The translations under genes and the position numbers were made by a program. Below the pieces are notes generated by a model. That model did not search any database. It saw only the letters and a program-made list of their open reading frames with translations, and had not been told where the DNA came from. Positions 47,069 to 56,006 of a stretch of 64,000 nt of DNA are shown here, piece after piece. Numbering within the stretch: the stretch's first letter is position 1; each line of letters begins with the position of its first letter. Origin of the DNA: Streptantibioticus ferralitis (GTDB taxonomy: Bacteria > Actinomycetota > Actinomycetes > Streptomycetales > Streptomycetaceae); assembly GCF_029223525.1 (NCBI RefSeq), contig NZ_JARHTQ010000018.1:108743-172742 (forward strand). Direction: 5' to 3'.

Positions 47069-48052
47069 ATGTTGCAGACGGCGTTCACCCAGCTTGTCGG
47101 CTGTAAGGCCCCGATCCAGCTGGCGCCGATGGGTGTGCTGAACACCCCGCAACTGGTCGCCGCGGTGACCGAGGCCGGCGGCATGGGCATGGTCGGGCTG
47201 CCGGGCGCACCCGCCAGGGCGGTCATCGACGCGCTCGAGGCCTGCGGCGCCCACGCCAAGGGCCCGTTCGGTTTCAACGTGCTGGTGCCGTTCCTCGACC
47301 TGGAGGTCGTCGAAGCGGCGGCGGCGCGGTGCCGGTGCGTCGACTTCTACCACGGCGCCGTCGATGGCTCGCTCGTCGAGCGGGTGCACGCGGCGGGCGC
47401 GCTCGCGGCCTGGCAGGTCGGCGCCACCGACCAGGCCCGCGCCGCCGTCGACGCCGGGTGCGACTTCCTCGTCGTCCGGGGCACCGAGGGCGGCGGCCGC
47501 ATGTACGGCTCGCGTGGGCTCTGGCCGATGCTCTTTGAGGTCCTGTCCGCGGTCGATATCCCGGTCCTGGCCACCGGCGGCATCGCCGACGGGCGCGGGC
47601 TGGCGGCGGCGCTGGCGGCCGGCGCCGCCGGAGTCCGGCTCGGCACTCGCTTCGTCGCGACCCCGGAGTCCAACGCGCACCAAAGCTACAAGGATGCAAT
47701 CGTGGCCGAGACCGAGACGGTCCTGACCGACGCCTTCAAGACCGGCTGGCCGGATGAGGTGACGCGGTCCCGCGTGCTGCGTCGCGCGTATGAACGCGCC
47801 GCCGCGCTGCCCGACAACGCCGCCGTCGCGCGGATGAAGATCGGGCCCGATACCGAGGAAGTGCCGAGATTCGGGTTTCCGCCACCCACTGCCACGGCCT
47901 CAGGCGATGTCACGGCGATGGCAATGTATGCCGGAGAATCCGCCGCCCTCATCACCAGCGTCGAACCCGCCGGCGAGATCGTCACCCAGATCGCGCGACA
48001 GGCGGAAGAACTCCTGCGATCGGCGACACCAGACAGACATGTGCGTTCCTGA
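47069..48052 (+). CDS. Nitronate monooxygenase-like flavoprotein
   Basis: A 327-residue TIM-barrel FMN protein of the NMO/2-nitropropane dioxygenase family. Features: PIQLAPMGVLNTPQLVAAVT, GPFGFNVLVPFL, CDFLVVRGTEGGGRMYG and the phosphate-binding IPVLATGGIADGRGLAAALA followed by GVRLGTRFVATPES. In class I enzymes the GGH motif supplies a catalytic His; here that position is Arg144 (GGGRMYG), so it may not be a true nitronate oxidase. Other members act as enoyl reductases. It stands alone. Confidence 0.85.
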   Translation: MLQTAFTQLVGCKAPIQLAPMGVLNTPQLVAAVTEAGGMGMVGLPGAPARAVIDALEACGAHAKGPFGFNVLVPFLDLEVVEAAAARCRCVDFYHGAVDGSLVERVHAAGALAAWQVGATDQARAAVDAGCDFLVVRGTEGGGRMYGSRGLWPMLFEVLSAVDIPVLATGGIADGRGLAAALAAGAAGVRLGTRFVATPESNAHQSYKDAIVAETETVLTDAFKTGWPDEVTRSRVLRRAYERAAALPDNAAVARMKIGPDTEEVPRFGFPPPTATASGDVTAMAMYAGESAALITSVEPAGEIVTQIARQAEELLRSATPDRHVRS

Positions 48053-48695
48053 CACGGCTCGCCCGCTGCGGCAAACCGCCTGACCGATCGCACAGATCCT
48101 CGCCCATGCTGCTCGGCCGTGCCGTCAGCTCCACATACGGCGGCTGCGCCAGGTAGTCGAGCGGCCAGACCCGGGCGGCGGGATAGGTGAGCGCGTCGCG
48201 GTGCCACTGGGCGGTATCCCGCACCTCGCCGCGCAGCACGTGCGCCCGGACCAGCGGAAGCCGGCTCCAGCGGACGCGCCCGGACCCCCGCTCGCCGAAG
48301 TTGCAGAGTAACGGCCTGACCCGCGATTGAGTGTGGGGCGTGCTGGCCTGGCGGTTCGGCTGGTGAGTGATTCAGCAGGCCGTCGCGCGGACGCCCACCA
48401 GTTCGGTGCTCGGGTCGTGGCGGGTGGTCCGCTGGGCAGCGCGGTCGGAGACCAAGCCTGCGATGGCTCGGTGGACTTCGCCGGCGCGGGCCGTGGCACG
48501 CGGCTCCACCCGCTTGAACCGGCCCGCGATCCGGGCCATGACGCCCTCCAAGCCCAGCTCACGCATCAGGTAGTTCTTCGCCAGGACCGTAACCCTGGCA
48601 TCAGGGACTCCACAAATCTCAGTACAGCTCACTCCTCCCCCGGAGCGCTGCCCCGGTCCGCGCCCGCCAGGAATGCGCCCCGGAGGCGGCCCTGG
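48053..48695. other. Remnant-bearing stretch
   Basis: Minus-strand positions about 48290-48110 read LPLVRAHVLRGEVRDTAQWH, then RDALTYPAARVWPLDYLAQP, clearly protein-like but not identified and without a start. A transposase end lies at 48372-48470. No intact gene. Confidence 0.4.
48372..48470 (-). mobile_element. C-terminal end of an IS5/DDE_Tnp_4-like transposase
   Basis: The minus strand reads HRAIAGLVSDRAAQRTTRHD, then PSTELVGVRATAC and a stop. This is the recurrent C-terminal signature of a Streptomyces IS5-like transposase (AIAGLVSDR). The rest of the element is absent. Confidence 0.6.
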
Positions 48696-49271
48696 TCAGA
48701 CCTCCGAATCTTCCAGGGCGTGGAAGGCGGAGACCAGGAGGCTATGGGGTTCCTCCGTGCGCTCCCGGCCCGGGGACGCCACGAGCTGGAACTGCACGCG
48801 TTCGGCGCCCTCGGGCGCCGGGCAGCGGCGGGAGACGACGCTCAACAGCGTGAGATACGGGATCGAGGTCTGCACGAACTCCTCACGCCGCTCCTCGCGC
48901 AGCACGGACGTGAGGTCGGAGGACAGGTCCAGCAGCGCCTTCTCGGCACGCCGGCCGGGGTGCCAGACCATCTGCCGTACCGACCGCGGCCGGATCACCG
49001 GATACTCGCGCCACGGACTCGTGGTGCCGTCCGCCAGCCGGTGCCTGACCAGGAGATGGATGTCCTCCGCCGCCGGGTTGGGCGCGAAGTACGTTGAGAC
49101 GGGGAACAGCGAGTGCCCGGGGTCGACCGGGCCCAGCCACCGTGGCTGCCTACGGAACTGCTGTGCCACCGTGAGCCCGAACCAGGCCAGCAGCAGCCCG
49201 TAGAGCCCGTACCGCTGAACGGGTGCGCCAGCGTAGCCGGTGAGCGCGGGTGTTCCGGTCGGATCAGGCAT
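48696..49271 (-). CDS. Membrane-anchored partner of the HTTM-hydrolase
   Basis: A 191-residue protein. Its ATG overlaps the stop of the preceding gene by eight bases, so the two are co-translated. One TM helix lies at about 22-40 (YGLYGLLLAWFGLTVAQQF). Then comes LFPVSTYFAPNPAAEDIHLL, VRHRLADGTTSPWREYPVIR and a helical C-terminus (EKALLDLSSDLTSVLREERR). The FAPNP/WRE pattern resembles proteins encoded beside HTTM-domain membrane proteins (DUF5819-like) and, more distantly, the SdpA role in SdpABC systems. Function unproven. Confidence 0.72.
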   Translation of the reverse strand: MPDPTGTPALTGYAGAPVQRYGLYGLLLAWFGLTVAQQFRRQPRWLGPVDPGHSLFPVSTYFAPNPAAEDIHLLVRHRLADGTTSPWREYPVIRPRSVRQMVWHPGRRAEKALLDLSSDLTSVLREERREEFVQTSIPYLTLLSVVSRRCPAPEGAERVQFQLVASPGRERTEEPHSLLVSAFHALEDSEV

Positions 49272-51189
49272 GGACGGCCTCCGTGGTCCGGGCCAGAGCC
49301 CACTCGATGCTCGCGACCACGCGGTCGGCGTACTCCCTGCGCGTGACCAAGGTGTTGTGCCCGGCGTCGGCCACGATGTCGTGCCGGGACACCTCGGACA
49401 GCTCGGCCAGCTCCCGTTGGAGTGCGAGGTGGGCGGGGTCCGAGCGAGCGGTCTCCCCCGCACTCAGCACCGCGACCGGAGCCGGTGAGAACGTCGTGAG
49501 CCGGGCCGCATCGTGCGACCAGGATTGGTGCCACTGGCGCAGTTCCCGGCGGGCCGACCACCACGTGGCGGGCGTGGACATACGGGCCTTGGTCGTCGCC
49601 GCGACCGCAGCGGGCAAGAAGCCGAACGGTCCTGCCGCCAGGTCGTCGGAGCGGCACGCTGTCGGCCCACCGACCAGTGTTCGCAGCCACTGCGTGGTGA
49701 GCCGCTGCCGGACCCAGGGGAGGGTTTCGCGCTGCCCGGCGGACCGGTCGAGTTGCTCGGGATGCGAGGAGTCGACGAACACCAGACCGCCGACCATCTC
49801 CGGATGGCGGCGGGCGAAGCAGCGGATCAGCACCCCGCCCACCGAGTGGCCCACCAGCAGGAAGGGCGGCTTCGCCTCGAGCCGGGCGAGCAGCGCGCCC
49901 AGCGCCGCGCTGTTCCACTCGGCGTCCTGCGCCCCTCCGTACGGTGAGCTCCAGCCGATGCCAGGCCGATCGTAGGCGACGTAGTCGACACCGGGGCCCA
50001 GACCGCGCAGCGCCCACGACCAGGCGGTGACCGGGCAGGCCATCCCGCTCTCGAATACCACGGTCGGACCGCCCGAGGTCGTGTCCGCGAGCACGTGCAC
50101 CTCGCGTCGGCCGAGCCGCACCATCCTGCCGGGCGCCGATCCGGCGCGACGGAGCCGCTGTTGCCGCGCCAGGCGCAGCACGGTGGTGCCCGCACCCACG
50201 CCCGCCAGGAGCGCGAGGCCCGCAGCGCCGGCCCGGTCCAGCCCGCCGCCTGGAGAGTCCCCGGCGGCGCGTCCTGTGTGCCCGCCCCGCACCGTGGGGC
50301 CGGAGGTCACCGTACGGCCTTGCTGCCCCGCATGTCCGGACGAAACTGTACGTCCGGTTTTCGGCCCTACGCCGGGGCCGCCGAGCGAACGGGAGACGTG
50401 GGCGATGGCCGGATACGTCGCGCAGTACGACCAGACGAACCGGTTGAGTCCCATGAGGCGCGCGTTGCCGAGATGGAATGCGGCGCCGGCAGCGAGGATG
50501 GCCCGGGCGACCGGAGGCGGCGCCACCAGTACGAGGGGAAAGGAGAGTTCACCGGCGATGGTCGACCAGGCGAGCGTCTTGGCGAGCCACGGTCGGTCGC
50601 GGACCGCACGGTGGAGGAAGGCGTCCCCAAGCGTCTCGGTGCGGAAGATCCTCGGGATGGCCGACCCGTCCCGCCAGACCGGCGAGACCAGCTTCGACAC
50701 CCCGGACGTGGCATAGGACAGGCATGCCTGCGCCGCGAGGAAGGCCACCACCGCCTCCCGGGCCCGGCGGTCCCCGCCGAACGTCTTCTCCAGCACCGAG
50801 CAGGCGTAGGTGACGAAGGCCAGCGGGTCAGACCCGTCGAATCCGTAGCGCGCGCGGGCCTGCAGGCCGTAGGCCGTCAGGCACATCGCGGCCGACAGCG
50901 CCGCCCGGGCCGGGCGGGCCGCGCCGGGCATCAGCAGCCCGAGTCCGGCGAGGCCCCGCGCCGCGACGATCCCCAGCACCTGGGGATGGCCGAAGAGCCG
51001 GTCGAGAGTCCCGGCCGCGGGCGCCCACGACGGCGGGAGACCGAGCCGGCCGACGTCCCAGGCGAGGAAGCCGCCCGGACCCAGCTCGGCGGACGCCGAC
51101 AGTTGTTCCAGGGCTCCGATCAACTGCCCGACAGAGGTGAGCATTTCGGCTCTGCGCAGTACGACGTCGATGTCGTCCCCGAAGCGCAC
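49264..51189 (-). CDS. HTTM-like membrane domain fused to alpha/beta hydrolase
   Basis: A 641-residue protein; GTG 51189 follows GGGAGG. Residues about 65-260 form a multi-TM domain with YATSGVSKLVSPVWRDG (159-175), which matches the HTTM/vitamin-K-carboxylase-like/SdpB pattern (Y..aG..K....W.DG), and later MGLNRFVWSYCATYPA. A Gly/Thr-rich linker (about 275-325) and one more hydrophobic helix lead to an alpha/beta hydrolase (about 345-641): VDYVAYDRPGIGWSSP, Ser449 in LLVGHSVGGVLIRCF and His in VADAGHNTLVTRREYA. The hydrolase side of the membrane is not certain. The upstream peptide gene and the overlapping downstream gene suggest a processing or modification system. Confidence 0.82.
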   Translation of the reverse strand: MRFGDDIDVVLRRAEMLTSVGQLIGALEQLSASAELGPGGFLAWDVGRLGLPPSWAPAAGTLDRLFGHPQVLGIVAARGLAGLGLLMPGAARPARAALSAAMCLTAYGLQARARYGFDGSDPLAFVTYACSVLEKTFGGDRRAREAVVAFLAAQACLSYATSGVSKLVSPVWRDGSAIPRIFRTETLGDAFLHRAVRDRPWLAKTLAWSTIAGELSFPLVLVAPPPVARAILAAGAAFHLGNARLMGLNRFVWSYCATYPAIAHVSRSLGGPGVGPKTGRTVSSGHAGQQGRTVTSGPTVRGGHTGRAAGDSPGGGLDRAGAAGLALLAGVGAGTTVLRLARQQRLRRAGSAPGRMVRLGRREVHVLADTTSGGPTVVFESGMACPVTAWSWALRGLGPGVDYVAYDRPGIGWSSPYGGAQDAEWNSAALGALLARLEAKPPFLLVGHSVGGVLIRCFARRHPEMVGGLVFVDSSHPEQLDRSAGQRETLPWVRQRLTTQWLRTLVGGPTACRSDDLAAGPFGFLPAAVAATTKARMSTPATWWSARRELRQWHQSWSHDAARLTTFSPAPVAVLSAGETARSDPAHLALQRELAELSEVSRHDIVADAGHNTLVTRREYADRVVASIEWALARTTEAVHA

Positions 51190-51250
51190 GTGTTCCTCCC
51201 GTGGTGGTGGAGCCGGGCGGGGCCGCCGTTCCCTTTCGGCGGCGGGCCCT

Positions 51251-51291
51251 GTCCGGGGCCCCGGACGGCGGGCGCGGTTCCGGGGCCCCGG
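51251..51291. terminator. Two G+C palindromes between peptide gene and HTTM gene
   Basis: A perfect 16-base palindrome (51251-51266) and a 12-base palindrome (51280-51291), both centred on GGGGCCCC, fill the 109-base gap between the peptide gene and the HTTM gene on the minus strand. They could attenuate transcription so that the peptide is made in excess. Confidence 0.5.
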
Positions 51292-51298
51292 GTGGCCG

Positions 51299-51547
51299 TC
51301 AGCGGAGGTGGCTCAGCAGCTCCTGCACGGAGAGCCCGCGACCCGCGCTCACACCCGGCTGACGCTCCCCCACCACGTGGTGGCCTATCCACCAGGCAGT
51401 CGGCACCTCTCGCGGCGTGACGACCTTCACCTCGGTGGCGCCGAGGGCCGGCACCGCGACGGTGGCGTCCGCCGTGCGGAATCCGCTGTCGTCGGTGGCC
51501 GTGCTCTCCGCCCAGCGCGTGACGGGCGACTCATGGGTCCGTGTCAT
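51299..51547 (-). CDS. 82-residue peptide, possible precursor
   Basis: A small acidic-to-neutral peptide with a very strong ribosome site (AGGAAAGGAG) before ATG 51547. It opens MTRTHESPVTRWAESTATDD, continues ATVAVPALGATEVKVVTPRE, has the aromatic segment PTAWWIGHHVVGERQPGV and ends GLSVQELLSHLR. There are no cysteines, no Sec signal and no TM segment. It leads an operon with a membrane HTTM-hydrolase and its partner. Such an arrangement is typical of ribosomally made peptides and their maturation proteins, but no known precursor family is recognised, so the role is inference. Confidence 0.6.
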   Translation of the reverse strand: MTRTHESPVTRWAESTATDDSGFRTADATVAVPALGATEVKVVTPREVPTAWWIGHHVVGERQPGVSAGRGLSVQELLSHLR

Positions 51548-51904
51548 CAGATACTCCTTTCCTGCTCCCCCGGACCACGGGTGGTCCGTCGCGCCGCTGC
51601 GCGGGGGCCGGCGTCCGGCAGAGCTGACAATGCGATCCGTACTTCCACGAACTACGCACATGGCTGAGTGTGCGCACCGGCCGGCAGCCGCATGGGACGC
51701 ACCACGTGGGTGATCGATCGAGCCGTTGGCGTCGGCCAGTTGGCTTAAACATGGCCTCGCGTGCTGCCACGACGCACGATCTGCTGCAGCTTCTGCCCTT
51801 CCTGACCGGTCAGTCTGCGCACACGGACAGGCCCGGCCACCGCGCCTCCAGCGGTCGGATCGGACGTCACCGCACATCCGACCGCCACGACGGCCAACCC
51901 GGCG
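51548..51904. other. Peptide promoter region and IS junction
   Basis: The first 150 bases upstream of the peptide gene must contain the operon promoter; clear boxes are not seen. From about 51740 the plus strand begins to resemble transposase debris joining the fragment at 51905. Confidence 0.35.
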
Positions 51905-52190
51905 AACCTATGCGGTCACAGCACTAGCCGGCCTGGGCCGCCCGATCGGCCCCTCCACGGTGTGGGCGATCCTGAAGAAGGCCGGGGTCGATCCGGCACC
52001 ACGCCGCTCGGGCCCGACGTGGGCGGAGTTTCAACGCACCCAGGCCTCGGGGATCCTGGCAGTGGACCTCTTCCATGTCGTTACCGTGCTGCTGAAGCGG
52101 CTGTACTGCATGGTCGCCATGGAGATCTCCACTCGCCGGGTCCACCTCCTCGGCGTCACCACCAACCCGACCGGCAGCTGGGCGGTCTGG
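51905..52190 (+). mobile_element. Internal fragment of an integrase-core transposase
   Basis: The plus strand reads LAGLGRPIGPSTVWAILKKA, PTWAEFQRTQASGILAVDLF (first catalytic Asp) and RLYCMVAMEISTRRVHLLGV, then TNPTGSW, after which it runs into the end of the HxlR gene. This is the front half of the DDE core; the second Asp and the Glu are missing. Confidence 0.72.
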
Positions 52191-52196
52191 CTCCGC

Positions 52197-52610
52197 TCAT
52201 GAACCGCCGGACGTCCTGTAGGCGGACGGGGCGTCGGTGCGGGCGTCGTATTCAGCGCGGGCGACGTCGATGTGCGCCAAGTGCGCGATGCTCCACTCCA
52301 GGAGGGGCGCGGCGGCTTCGCGGAGGGTGATGCCCATCGTGGTGAGCTCGTAGGTCACGTGCGGCGGCATGACGTTATGGACGGTGCGGGTCAGGATTCC
52401 GTCACGTTCAAGGCTGCGCAGGGTGACAGTGAGCATTCGCTGGCTGATTCCGTCGATGGCCCGTTTGAGTTCGGTGAAGCGGCGCGGTCCCTCCCTGAGG
52501 TTGCGCACGACCAGCAGCGACCACTTGTCCCCGACGATGTCGAGCACCACGCGGGTCCGGCACGCATTGTCCTGCCGCGCCGACTGCATCGCGCTGTCCG
52601 TCGTGGTCAT
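52197..52610 (-). CDS. HxlR-family regulator
   Basis: A 137-residue winged-helix regulator with CTGGAGG before the ATG at 52610. Signature: CRTRVVLDIVGDKWSLLVVR, NLREGPRRFTELKRAIDGIS and QRMLTVTLRSLERDGILTRT. HxlR proteins typically sense electrophiles through the N-terminal Cys; the Cys in NACRTRVVLD occupies that place. It is divergent from the hydrolase at 52770 and probably controls it. Confidence 0.92.
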   Translation of the reverse strand: MTTTDSAMQSARQDNACRTRVVLDIVGDKWSLLVVRNLREGPRRFTELKRAIDGISQRMLTVTLRSLERDGILTRTVHNVMPPHVTYELTTMGITLREAAAPLLEWSIAHLAHIDVARAEYDARTDAPSAYRTSGGS

Positions 52611-54656: not shown

Positions 54657-55490
54657 TCAGTCGATCAGCCGGGCCAGTTCGTCGAGGATGCTCAGGGCTT
54701 CGGCTTCCGGGACGTTGGGCAGGTGGAAGGTGATGCCCGCCGCGCCGGCCTCCCGGTAGGCCGCGACGACGTCCGGCTCGGGTGGAACGGCGTTGGCGAT
54801 CACTGGTGTCTCCGGGCCGACCAGCGCCATCTGCTCAGCGACCCCGGCGGGGTCGGTGACGTCGTTGGCGCTGGGCATCCAGCCGCCGAACCGCTCGGCC
54901 CGAGCGATCGCCTTGGCGCTCTGGCCGCCCACGTACACCGGCGGGTGCGGTCGCTGAACCGGCTTGGGCCAGGCGAAGATCGGGTCGAAGTCGACGTACT
55001 TCCCGTGGTATTCGGCCTGGCCCTTCGTCCAGATCTCGATGATCGCGGCCATCCGCTCGTCCAGGAGCCGACCGCGGATCCGTGGGTCGGTGCCGTGGTT
55101 GCGCATCTCCTCGCGGTTCCAGCCCGCGCCGATGCCGAAGATCACCCGGCCGTTGGACAGGAAGTCCAAGGAGGCGACGTCTTTGGCGGTTTGGATCGGA
55201 TCACGCTGGACAAGCAGGGCGACTCCGGTGCCGAGCAACAGGTTCTCGGTCACTCCGGCGACCATGCTCAGAGCGGCGAACGGGTCGAGCGTCCGGTAGT
55301 ACTGCCGGGGCAGCTCGCCGCCACGCGGGTGGGGCTTGGCACTGTCAGCCGGAATGTGGCTGTGGTCGGCCAGGAAGAGGGCGTCGAAGCCGCGTTCTTC
55401 CACCGCCGTCCCGAGCTTGGCGGGGTGAATGCTCTCGTCGGTGGCGATGGCGTGGATGCCGAATCTCGTTGTACCTAATCCGGTCGTCAT
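54657..55490 (-). CDS. LLM-class, probably F420-dependent oxidoreductase
   Basis: A 277-residue luciferase-like TIM-barrel protein starting at 55490. Features: GIHAIATDESIHPAKLGTAV, FDALFLADHSHIP, LLLGTGVALLVQRDPIQTAK, the cofactor-phosphate loop VIFGIGAGWNREEMRNHGTD and PPVYVGGQSAKAIARAERFG. This subgroup in actinomycetes usually uses F420 and transfers hydride to or from small organic substrates. It is divergent from the MarR gene at 55563, the likely regulator. Confidence 0.88.
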   Translation of the reverse strand: MTTGLGTTRFGIHAIATDESIHPAKLGTAVEERGFDALFLADHSHIPADSAKPHPRGGELPRQYYRTLDPFAALSMVAGVTENLLLGTGVALLVQRDPIQTAKDVASLDFLSNGRVIFGIGAGWNREEMRNHGTDPRIRGRLLDERMAAIIEIWTKGQAEYHGKYVDFDPIFAWPKPVQRPHPPVYVGGQSAKAIARAERFGGWMPSANDVTDPAGVAEQMALVGPETPVIANAVPPEPDVVAAYREAGAAGITFHLPNVPEAEALSILDELARLID

Positions 55491-55524
55491 GCCTCGCACA
55501 CTAAACCCTTCAGCCTGGACTGAC

Positions 55525-55562
55525 AATCCAGGTTGACAATCTTGGTTGATCAATTTAGCTTG
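55525..55562. promoter_or_regulatory. A+T-rich repeat region, probable MarR operator
   Basis: Within the 72-base gap between the LLM and MarR genes, TGACAATC occurs twice in direct orientation, followed by TTGATCAA, a perfect 8-base palindrome. The drop in G+C and the TTGA/TCAA symmetry are typical of MarR-family sites. Confidence 0.5.
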
Positions 55563-56006
55563 ATGACCATGGCTCAGTCTGCGAACGCCGATGACCTCGG
55601 TGCAGTGCTCTACGACGGCATCAGGCTCATGGCGCGGCGGCTCCGCCATGCATCGACACCCGGCGAGCTTTCGCTGCCCGAACGCTCGGCGCTGTCAAGA
55701 CTGAACCGGGGCGGCCCGGCCACGGCCGCCGAGCTGGCAAGGGCCGAGCAGATCACGCCTCAGGCGATGGGAACCACTCTGAGCGGCCTGGAAGGGCGGG
55801 GCCTCGTCCGGCGGAACCCTGACCCGCATGACCGCCGACGGGTACTCGTGTCACTGACCGAGACCGGTCTGGGGATGCTGCGGCGCAAACACGACGCCCG
55901 GGCCCGACAGGTGGCGACCGCCCTCGAACAGCACTTCACGAAAGCGGAGTTGGAGACCCTCATGTCAGCGGCCCCGCTGATCGAGCGACTGGCGGAGAGC
56001 ATATGA
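55563..56006 (+). CDS. MarR-family regulator
   Basis: About 147 residues. The ATGs at 55563 and 55569 are both possible and there is no clear ribosome site, so translation may be leaderless. The winged helix is clear: LPERSALSRLNRGGPATAAE, RAEQITPQAMGTTLSGLEGR and GLVRRNPDPHDRRRVLVSLT, including the DxRR wing. Helices at both ends provide dimerisation. It should repress itself and the divergent LLM oxidoreductase in response to a phenolic or similar ligand. Confidence 0.9.
   Translation: MTMAQSANADDLGAVLYDGIRLMARRLRHASTPGELSLPERSALSRLNRGGPATAAELARAEQITPQAMGTTLSGLEGRGLVRRNPDPHDRRRVLVSLTETGLGMLRRKHDARARQVATALEQHFTKAELETLMSAAPLIERLAESI

Follow-up and report, generated by a model that had tools for sequence, protein, structure and literature searches.

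Linaridin RiPPs (ribosomally synthesised and post-translationally modified peptides) are the closest described relatives of the system reported here. Their precursors are described as carrying a PxxxTP hexapeptide, and an HTTM protein and an alpha/beta hydrolase, either separate or fused, are given as linaridin features (PMC9927463). The same source describes one linaridin in which every Ser and Thr is dehydrated, and stated in 2022 of linaridin dehydration and epimerisation that 'their exact mechanism remains unclear' (PMC9927463). Elsewhere, grmL is reported to be indispensable for grisemycin (PMC10373908), and LinHL is presented as an L-to-D epimerisation system (PMC10406935). We analysed a window of 64,000 nucleotides (the whole stretch of DNA under study; positions 108,743 to 172,742 of contig NZ_JARHTQ010000018.1, assembly GCF_029223525.1) from Streptantibioticus ferralitis. 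Its minus strand carries three genes in tight series, encoding an 82-residue peptide, a 641-residue fusion of an HTTM domain to an alpha/beta hydrolase, and a 191-residue partner (Table 1). Judged by sequence comparison, it is well supported that this trio is a linaridin-type operon encoding LinA, LinH and LinL.

This assignment follows from a survey of LinL-type proteins, from a relative with a cypemycin-like precursor, and from the LinL-type protein of a legonaridin strain. In the relative (L106), a precursor resembling that of cypemycin, with what we take to be a cypemycin-like end, adjoins a fused LinH and a LinL. PMC9927463 gives Streptomyces sp. CT34 as the strain of legonaridin, and the family profile matches its LinL-type protein (E 1.6e-44). 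A LinL homologue is thus recognised in the trio through both the CT34 protein and the partner gene of L106, and the HTTM and alpha/beta-hydrolase domains expected of a linaridin cluster are both present in the window's fusion.

The survey was queried with one LinL-type protein of CT34 against 394 genomes of the family, 60 of which matched; it covers 60 of 71 listed places, the window's own place being among the other 11, and some strains are counted twice (L094 is L010, and L101 is L008). An HTTM domain lies within 4 kb of 60 of the 61 LinL-type hits, and 52 have a hydrolase, 32 as an in-frame fusion with HTTM and 20 as a separate gene, so that the fusion, for which the preliminary description knew of no characterised example, is a recurrent arrangement. 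A same-strand PxxxTP precursor-like short open reading frame (ORF) with a hydrophobic continuation was found within 5.5 kb in 42/61 hits, 25 of them among the 32 fused ones, and on the opposite strand in 1/61. The filter missed the precursor-like ORFs of L097 and L100 and, by design, the peptide of L101, which has PALGAT in place of PxxxTP; it accepted ORFs of L111 that are spurious by eye, and the counts are left as computed. The relatives therefore keep the trio with a variable small gene, as expected of the peptide-maturation system that had been proposed; a small gene that was always missing, unconserved or without codon bias would have spoken against that role, and it is instead retained in most relatives, conserved and codon-biased.

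The genes themselves are under constraint. The co-directional, closely spaced layout noted earlier is confirmed with coordinates, the stop of the fusion and the start of the partner overlapping by 8 nucleotides (nt), and third-position GC is 0.87-0.89 in all three genes, a high-GC codon bias. The ratio of nonsynonymous to synonymous substitution rates (dN/dS) between the window and L008 is 0.31 for the peptide, 0.21 for the fusion and 0.14 for the partner; between L009 and L013 the values are 0.155, 0.22 and 0.18. Purifying selection acts on all three genes, and the peptide gene, given its two ratios, is more than a chance ORF.

Scanning named genomes yielded 22 loci, and homologues of the window's third protein occur in 21 of them, all except L026. 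A precursor-like small ORF is present in 18/22, or 19 with a looser motif that adds L027; it lies on the opposite strand in L017 and L018 and was not found in L019, L020 and L026. The fusion is present in the Streptomyces and Streptantibioticus loci (L008-L015), whereas HTTM and hydrolase are separate genes in the loci from Amycolatopsis, Prauserella and Saccharomonospora. Eleven plasmid records also matched, and five of the six plasmid loci read contain HTTM, hydrolase and partner genes. In four of the five, PxxxTP precursors of 59-70 aa are accompanied by a methyltransferase and an ABC transporter; the small gene of the fifth (Tsukamurella) lacks PxxxTP, and the sixth locus (Rhodococcus) has HTTM and partner genes only. 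On a tree of 99 HTTM domains (96 of them different), for which the program warned of long branches meeting, the fused state changes six times, at least five of these changes being forced by supported branches; fusion and splitting have therefore occurred repeatedly.

Pfam searches of the trio gave a clear match to Abhydrolase_1 (E 1.2e-10), bearing out the hydrolase that had been predicted, and weak matches, below the cut-offs, to HTTM, LMF1 and DUF5819. The HTTM and DUF5819 relations, also named in the preliminary description, were recovered by comparing profiles: LinH-type HTTM domains match stand-alone HTTM proteins (hhalign probability 98.9%) and LinL matches DUF5819 (95.5%). That description had placed the system nearest to SdpAB of Bacillus, an explanation by which the HTTM protein and its partner would process a secreted toxin-like peptide, without RiPP chemistry, as SdpA and SdpB, both reported to be required (PMC6818787), process SdpC. 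The two systems share a small HTTM protein and a small membrane partner needed for peptide processing, there is weak similarity to SdpB, and a further HTTM and LinL-type pair in the same genome, described below, has no hydrolase in the 3.7 kb read. The SdpAB system itself is not known to include a hydrolase, the SdpB model scores 17.7 bits, far below its cut-off of 178.4, and up to E 0.1 none of 62 LinL-type proteins matches an SdpA family, in a library that presumably contains an SdpA model. The precursor differs as well, the trio having no large SdpC-like precursor gene and its relatives having RiPP-type precursors and tailoring genes. After these comparisons the analogy was dropped; such a toxin-processing role is highly improbable, and linaridin RiPPs are the nearer system.

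What chemistry might such a trio perform? An alignment of 23 LinH-type HTTM domains (A5) was compared with one of stand-alone actinobacterial HTTM proteins from 13 of 30 fetched loci (A7). The match (E 2.2e-17) places LinH K166 on HTTM K196; a single stand-alone HTTM protein against the LinH HTTM domain still gives 97.0%, versus 0.3% for a control with one unrelated permease. In turn, the A7 profile finds chains of the vitamin K-dependent gamma-carboxylase (GGCX) in the PDB at E 2.6e-8, with no other chain below E 0.07. Combining both alignments takes LinH K166 over HTTM K196 to GGCX K218 (chain position 187, offset 31). The organism of the chain was taken from its numbering, which fits the human enzyme of PMC12589487 and was checked against W157 (PMC5343777) and N158-H160, W223, F286, N290, F294 and F299 (PMC12589487). 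The LinH-type profile alone does not reach GGCX, and neither the LinH HTTM domain (A5), LinL (A6) nor DUF5819 (A8) has a meaningful direct sequence match among solved structures. The fold alignments were made from the non-plasmid loci. A structure model of the fusion (mean predicted local distance difference test score 86.6) has a helical N-terminal part, a loose linker and an alpha/beta hydrolase; in a fold search with the whole model the listed matches were filled by the hydrolase domain, and a search with LinL gave no match at E <= 0.001.

K218 of GGCX is described as the base that deprotonates vitamin K hydroquinone, with W223, F286 and F299 forming the quinone pocket and N290 the tail tunnel (PMC12589487); LinH W172, F238, F251 and N242, respectively, align with these four. 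The 99 HTTM domains, linaridin-type and related sequences that were selected for their similarity to the fusions, show no variation at K166, W172, E214 and H239. F251 is retained in 98 of them, F238 in 96 and N242 in 82, and no lysine column other than K166 exceeds 60%. The catalytic lysine and quinone pocket of the vitamin K-dependent carboxylase superfamily are thus present, as seen through the intermediate family, by way of which the alignments show the LinH HTTM domain to be homologous to the vitamin K carboxylase. The Glu-binding N159/H160 of GGCX is not retained; the window's fusion has G119/S120, and the H160 position is Ser, Ala or Thr, never His, in the 99 domains.

With this in mind, we infer quinone chemistry in LinH and LinL, and regard it as evenly poised whether the linaridin-type trio modifies its precursor at the membrane, LinH and LinL running on menaquinol much as the vitamin K carboxylase runs on vitamin K. 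According to this model, the precursor would be modified at the membrane by the LinH-type fusion together with the single-helix LinL-type partner. K166 would deprotonate menaquinol, oxygen would convert it into a very strong base, and this base would take the alpha-proton from precursor residues presented by LinL, which may be the counterpart of the lumenal substrate-binding part that comes after the last membrane helix of the carboxylase. The resulting carbanion could be reprotonated to a D residue, or lose its beta-hydroxyl or thiol to leave a dehydro residue; epimerisation and dehydration would both follow, since one alpha-carbanion can give either outcome. The genome encodes two proteins of menaquinone-synthesis families and one VKOR-family protein, which are compatible with, and not specific for, a quinone mechanism. 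Among the literature matches listed, none joins linaridin and vitamin K; linaridin and menaquinone co-occur in four of them, and a menaquinol mechanism may have been published before. A wider proposal, which we advance tentatively and consider somewhat doubtful, is that linaridin maturases belong to the vitamin K carboxylase superfamily as a split branch coupled to a hydrolase. In this branch one menaquinol-driven carbanion would lead to dehydration, dethiolation or L-to-D conversion, and the window's clade would use the same chemistry on a new class of precursors that lack a core.

The chemistry could instead reside in the other half of the fusion, the alpha/beta-hydrolase domain acting on the alpha-carbon as BotH, the bottromycin epimerase, does and the HTTM domain serving as a membrane scaffold only. 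LinHL is indeed classed with BotH among alpha/beta-hydrolase family epimerases in PMC10406935, and the hydrolase accompanies precursors, being present in 40/42 hits with a precursor-like ORF vs 12/19 without (Fisher p 0.0027); the two precursor hits lacking it are, by elimination, both L111 hits, whose PxxxTP ORFs are spurious by eye. However, the nucleophilic Ser is missing in 8/86 hydrolase domains, and in 7 of the 8 the His is gone as well, while K166 is kept in 99/99; conservation of the quinone-pocket residues would be surprising in an inert scaffold. We therefore consider hydrolase-based alpha-carbon chemistry unlikely. Under the menaquinol model the hydrolase would perform a later or accessory step; its association with precursors suggests that it processes the peptide, and cleavage after the proline of PxxxTP may be offered as a guess.

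The precursor of the window departs from known linaridins. It has a leader-like N-terminus, PALGAT at the place of PxxxTP, a short core-like stretch with TPREVPTAWWIGHH, and a C-terminal GLSVQELL. PxxxTP is present in 17 of the 24 precursors aligned (A2, from which further copies, such as second ones in L021-L023, L025 and L030-L034 and that of L027, were set aside). Two features of a linaridin precursor are missing from the window's peptide: the hexapeptide is replaced, and in place of a Thr/Ser-containing hydrophobic core there are 5 Ser/Thr in 44 core residues, with a best 15-residue hydropathy of 0.43. Because the PxxxTP hexapeptide is missing, the window's set is best filed as a divergent linaridin-type variant rather than a proven linaridin. 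The same PALGAT is found in L008, L009 and L013, and the four peptides have no hydrophobic stretch (best 15-residue hydropathy 0.37-0.64 vs 1.16-2.14 in the other 20 of A2). What they retain is the leader-like start, a short PTA(W/Y/F)W segment and, at the C-terminus, the motif G-x-S-x-x-(E/D)-LL, forms of which occur in the other long precursors; the GxSxxELL motif is not present in the four short (63-70 aa) precursors of A2. The HTTM domains of the PALGAT loci form one clade (support 97/92), and since it nests inside the fused, long-precursor group, the loss of PxxxTP and of the hydrophobic core is a derived change. Few dehydrations would be expected in this clade, with Thr50 the best candidate, or mainly epimerisation, because the precursor is Ser/Thr-poor and has no hydrophobic core. 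A search built on PxxxTP would overlook precursors of the type that this clade adds.

One may also read the same changes as decay of a linaridin locus, the peptide core being lost, the neighbours being insertion-element debris and the enzymes remaining as remnants or reassigned. The PALGAT substitution and the vanished core fit such a history, as do the broken insertion-element or transposase-like fragments seen by eye on both sides of the operon (51726-52202 and 48300-48660), which suggest that neighbours were acquired or lost via mobile elements, and the trio, beside which no methyltransferase, oxidoreductase or transporter was seen. On the other side, the altered peptide is common to a supported clade, dN/dS is well below 1 in all three genes, the ribosome sites are good and the catalytic residues intact, and metagenomes contain a peptide with 91% identity and a fusion with 93% identity (longest contig 29138 for both). 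Degeneration thus seems quite improbable, and a divergent linaridin-type operon remains our preferred reading.

The gap between the peptide and fusion genes contains two perfect palindromes, GTCCGGGGCCCCGGAC (16 nt) and CCGGGGCCCCGG (12 nt), and folds with an energy of -68.1 kcal/mol (z -2.1). The gap hairpin reaches z <= -2.4 in six of eight loci (the window, L009, L010, L013, L014 and L015; L011, a near copy of L010, was excluded) and is weak in L008 (z -0.3) and L012 (z -1.2). A standard intrinsic terminator was rejected because, by eye, no T-run follows the hairpin. Given its presence in six of the eight loci, a putative attenuator role is plausible; it is also possible that the hairpin is an element for stoichiometry or mRNA stability, which would hold the peptide at higher abundance than the enzymes.

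Table 1. Features of the linaridin-type operon (positions in the window)
Feature	Positions	Strand	Remarks
Precursor-type peptide gene, 82 aa	51299..51547	-	ATG...TGA
Ribosome-binding site of the peptide gene, AGGAAAGGAG	51554..51563	-	six bases upstream of ATG
Gap of 109 nt with two perfect palindromes and strong hairpin	51190..51298	-	candidate element for stoichiometry or mRNA stability
LinH-type fusion, 641 aa	49264..51189	-	GTG start, TGA stop
HTTM (vitamin K carboxylase-like) transmembrane domain, residues about 5-270	50380..51177	-	
K166 codon of the fusion, aligned with GGCX K218 via stand-alone HTTM proteins	50692..50694	-	
Alpha/beta-hydrolase domain, residues about 354-638 (GHSVGG S449, D584, H611)	49276..50130	-	
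LinL-type (DUF5819-related) partner of 191 aa with a single predicted transmembrane helix and a beta/alpha domain	48696..49271	-	ATG...TGA
Long N-terminal helix predicted for the partner (residues 16-39), taken to be its single transmembrane helix	49155..49226	-	

Near the operon, nitronate monooxygenase-like and flavin monooxygenase-like genes were seen by eye (47069-48052 and 54657-55649). Among the eight closest loci, five (L008, L010, L011, L012 and L015) share a neighbouring gene of one family; it is an O-methyltransferase (Methyltransf_2) in the three scanned (L008 5990-7069, L012 6055-7200, L015 5891-7273), with homologues downstream in L010 and L011, and methylation of the product is possible. 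A transporter and an oxidoreductase neighbour the trio in L014, and a haem-oxygenase-like iron redox enzyme (PF14518) lies upstream of that in L013 (5954-7105). Two full HTTM, hydrolase and LinL sets occur in each of L016-L018 and L021-L025, mostly Pseudonocardiaceae. Several of these loci have two precursor types per cluster, as if for a two-peptide product, and in L016 and L025 one hydrolase copy is without its serine.

Two further pairs occur in the same genome. A DUF5819 gene (E 1.4e-65; contig C45, 18878-19363, L112) lies adjacent to an HTTM-domain frame, a common streptomycete pair. On contig C88 (about 236740-238009; L002, L039) there is a second, distant LinL-type and HTTM pair, whose HTTM match crosses one TGA; pairs of this kind also occur in both other genomes of the genus (L102 and L111).

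Like cypemycin, grisemycin, legonaridin and corynaridin, the system combines a LinL-type protein, an HTTM protein and an alpha/beta hydrolase (fused to it or not) with an adjacent small precursor; most aligned precursors have PxxxTP, and that of one relative is cypemycin-like. The window's own precursor differs in lacking PxxxTP and a hydrophobic core, in its few Ser/Thr and in its C-terminal GxSxxELL, and its trio stands without the tailoring and transport genes named above. With GGCX, LinH shares, by alignment through the stand-alone HTTM proteins, the HTTM region, the base and the quinone-pocket residues; it differs in the replaced Glu-binding pair, so that no carboxylation is implied, in having its membrane part and the LinL-type partner as separate proteins, and in its attached hydrolase. 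The lysine shared with the blood-clotting enzyme makes linaridin chemistry testable through one residue and one cofactor, and if the model is true, vitamin K chemistry would reach beyond the gamma-carboxylation of Glu and take in alpha-carbon chemistry on bacterial peptides. The stand-alone HTTM and DUF5819 pairs of streptomycetes are homologous to LinH and LinL in both members. Among the 30 short loci read, several have a DUF5819-type gene immediately upstream of the HTTM gene, and the same model would hint at a role for these gene pairs.

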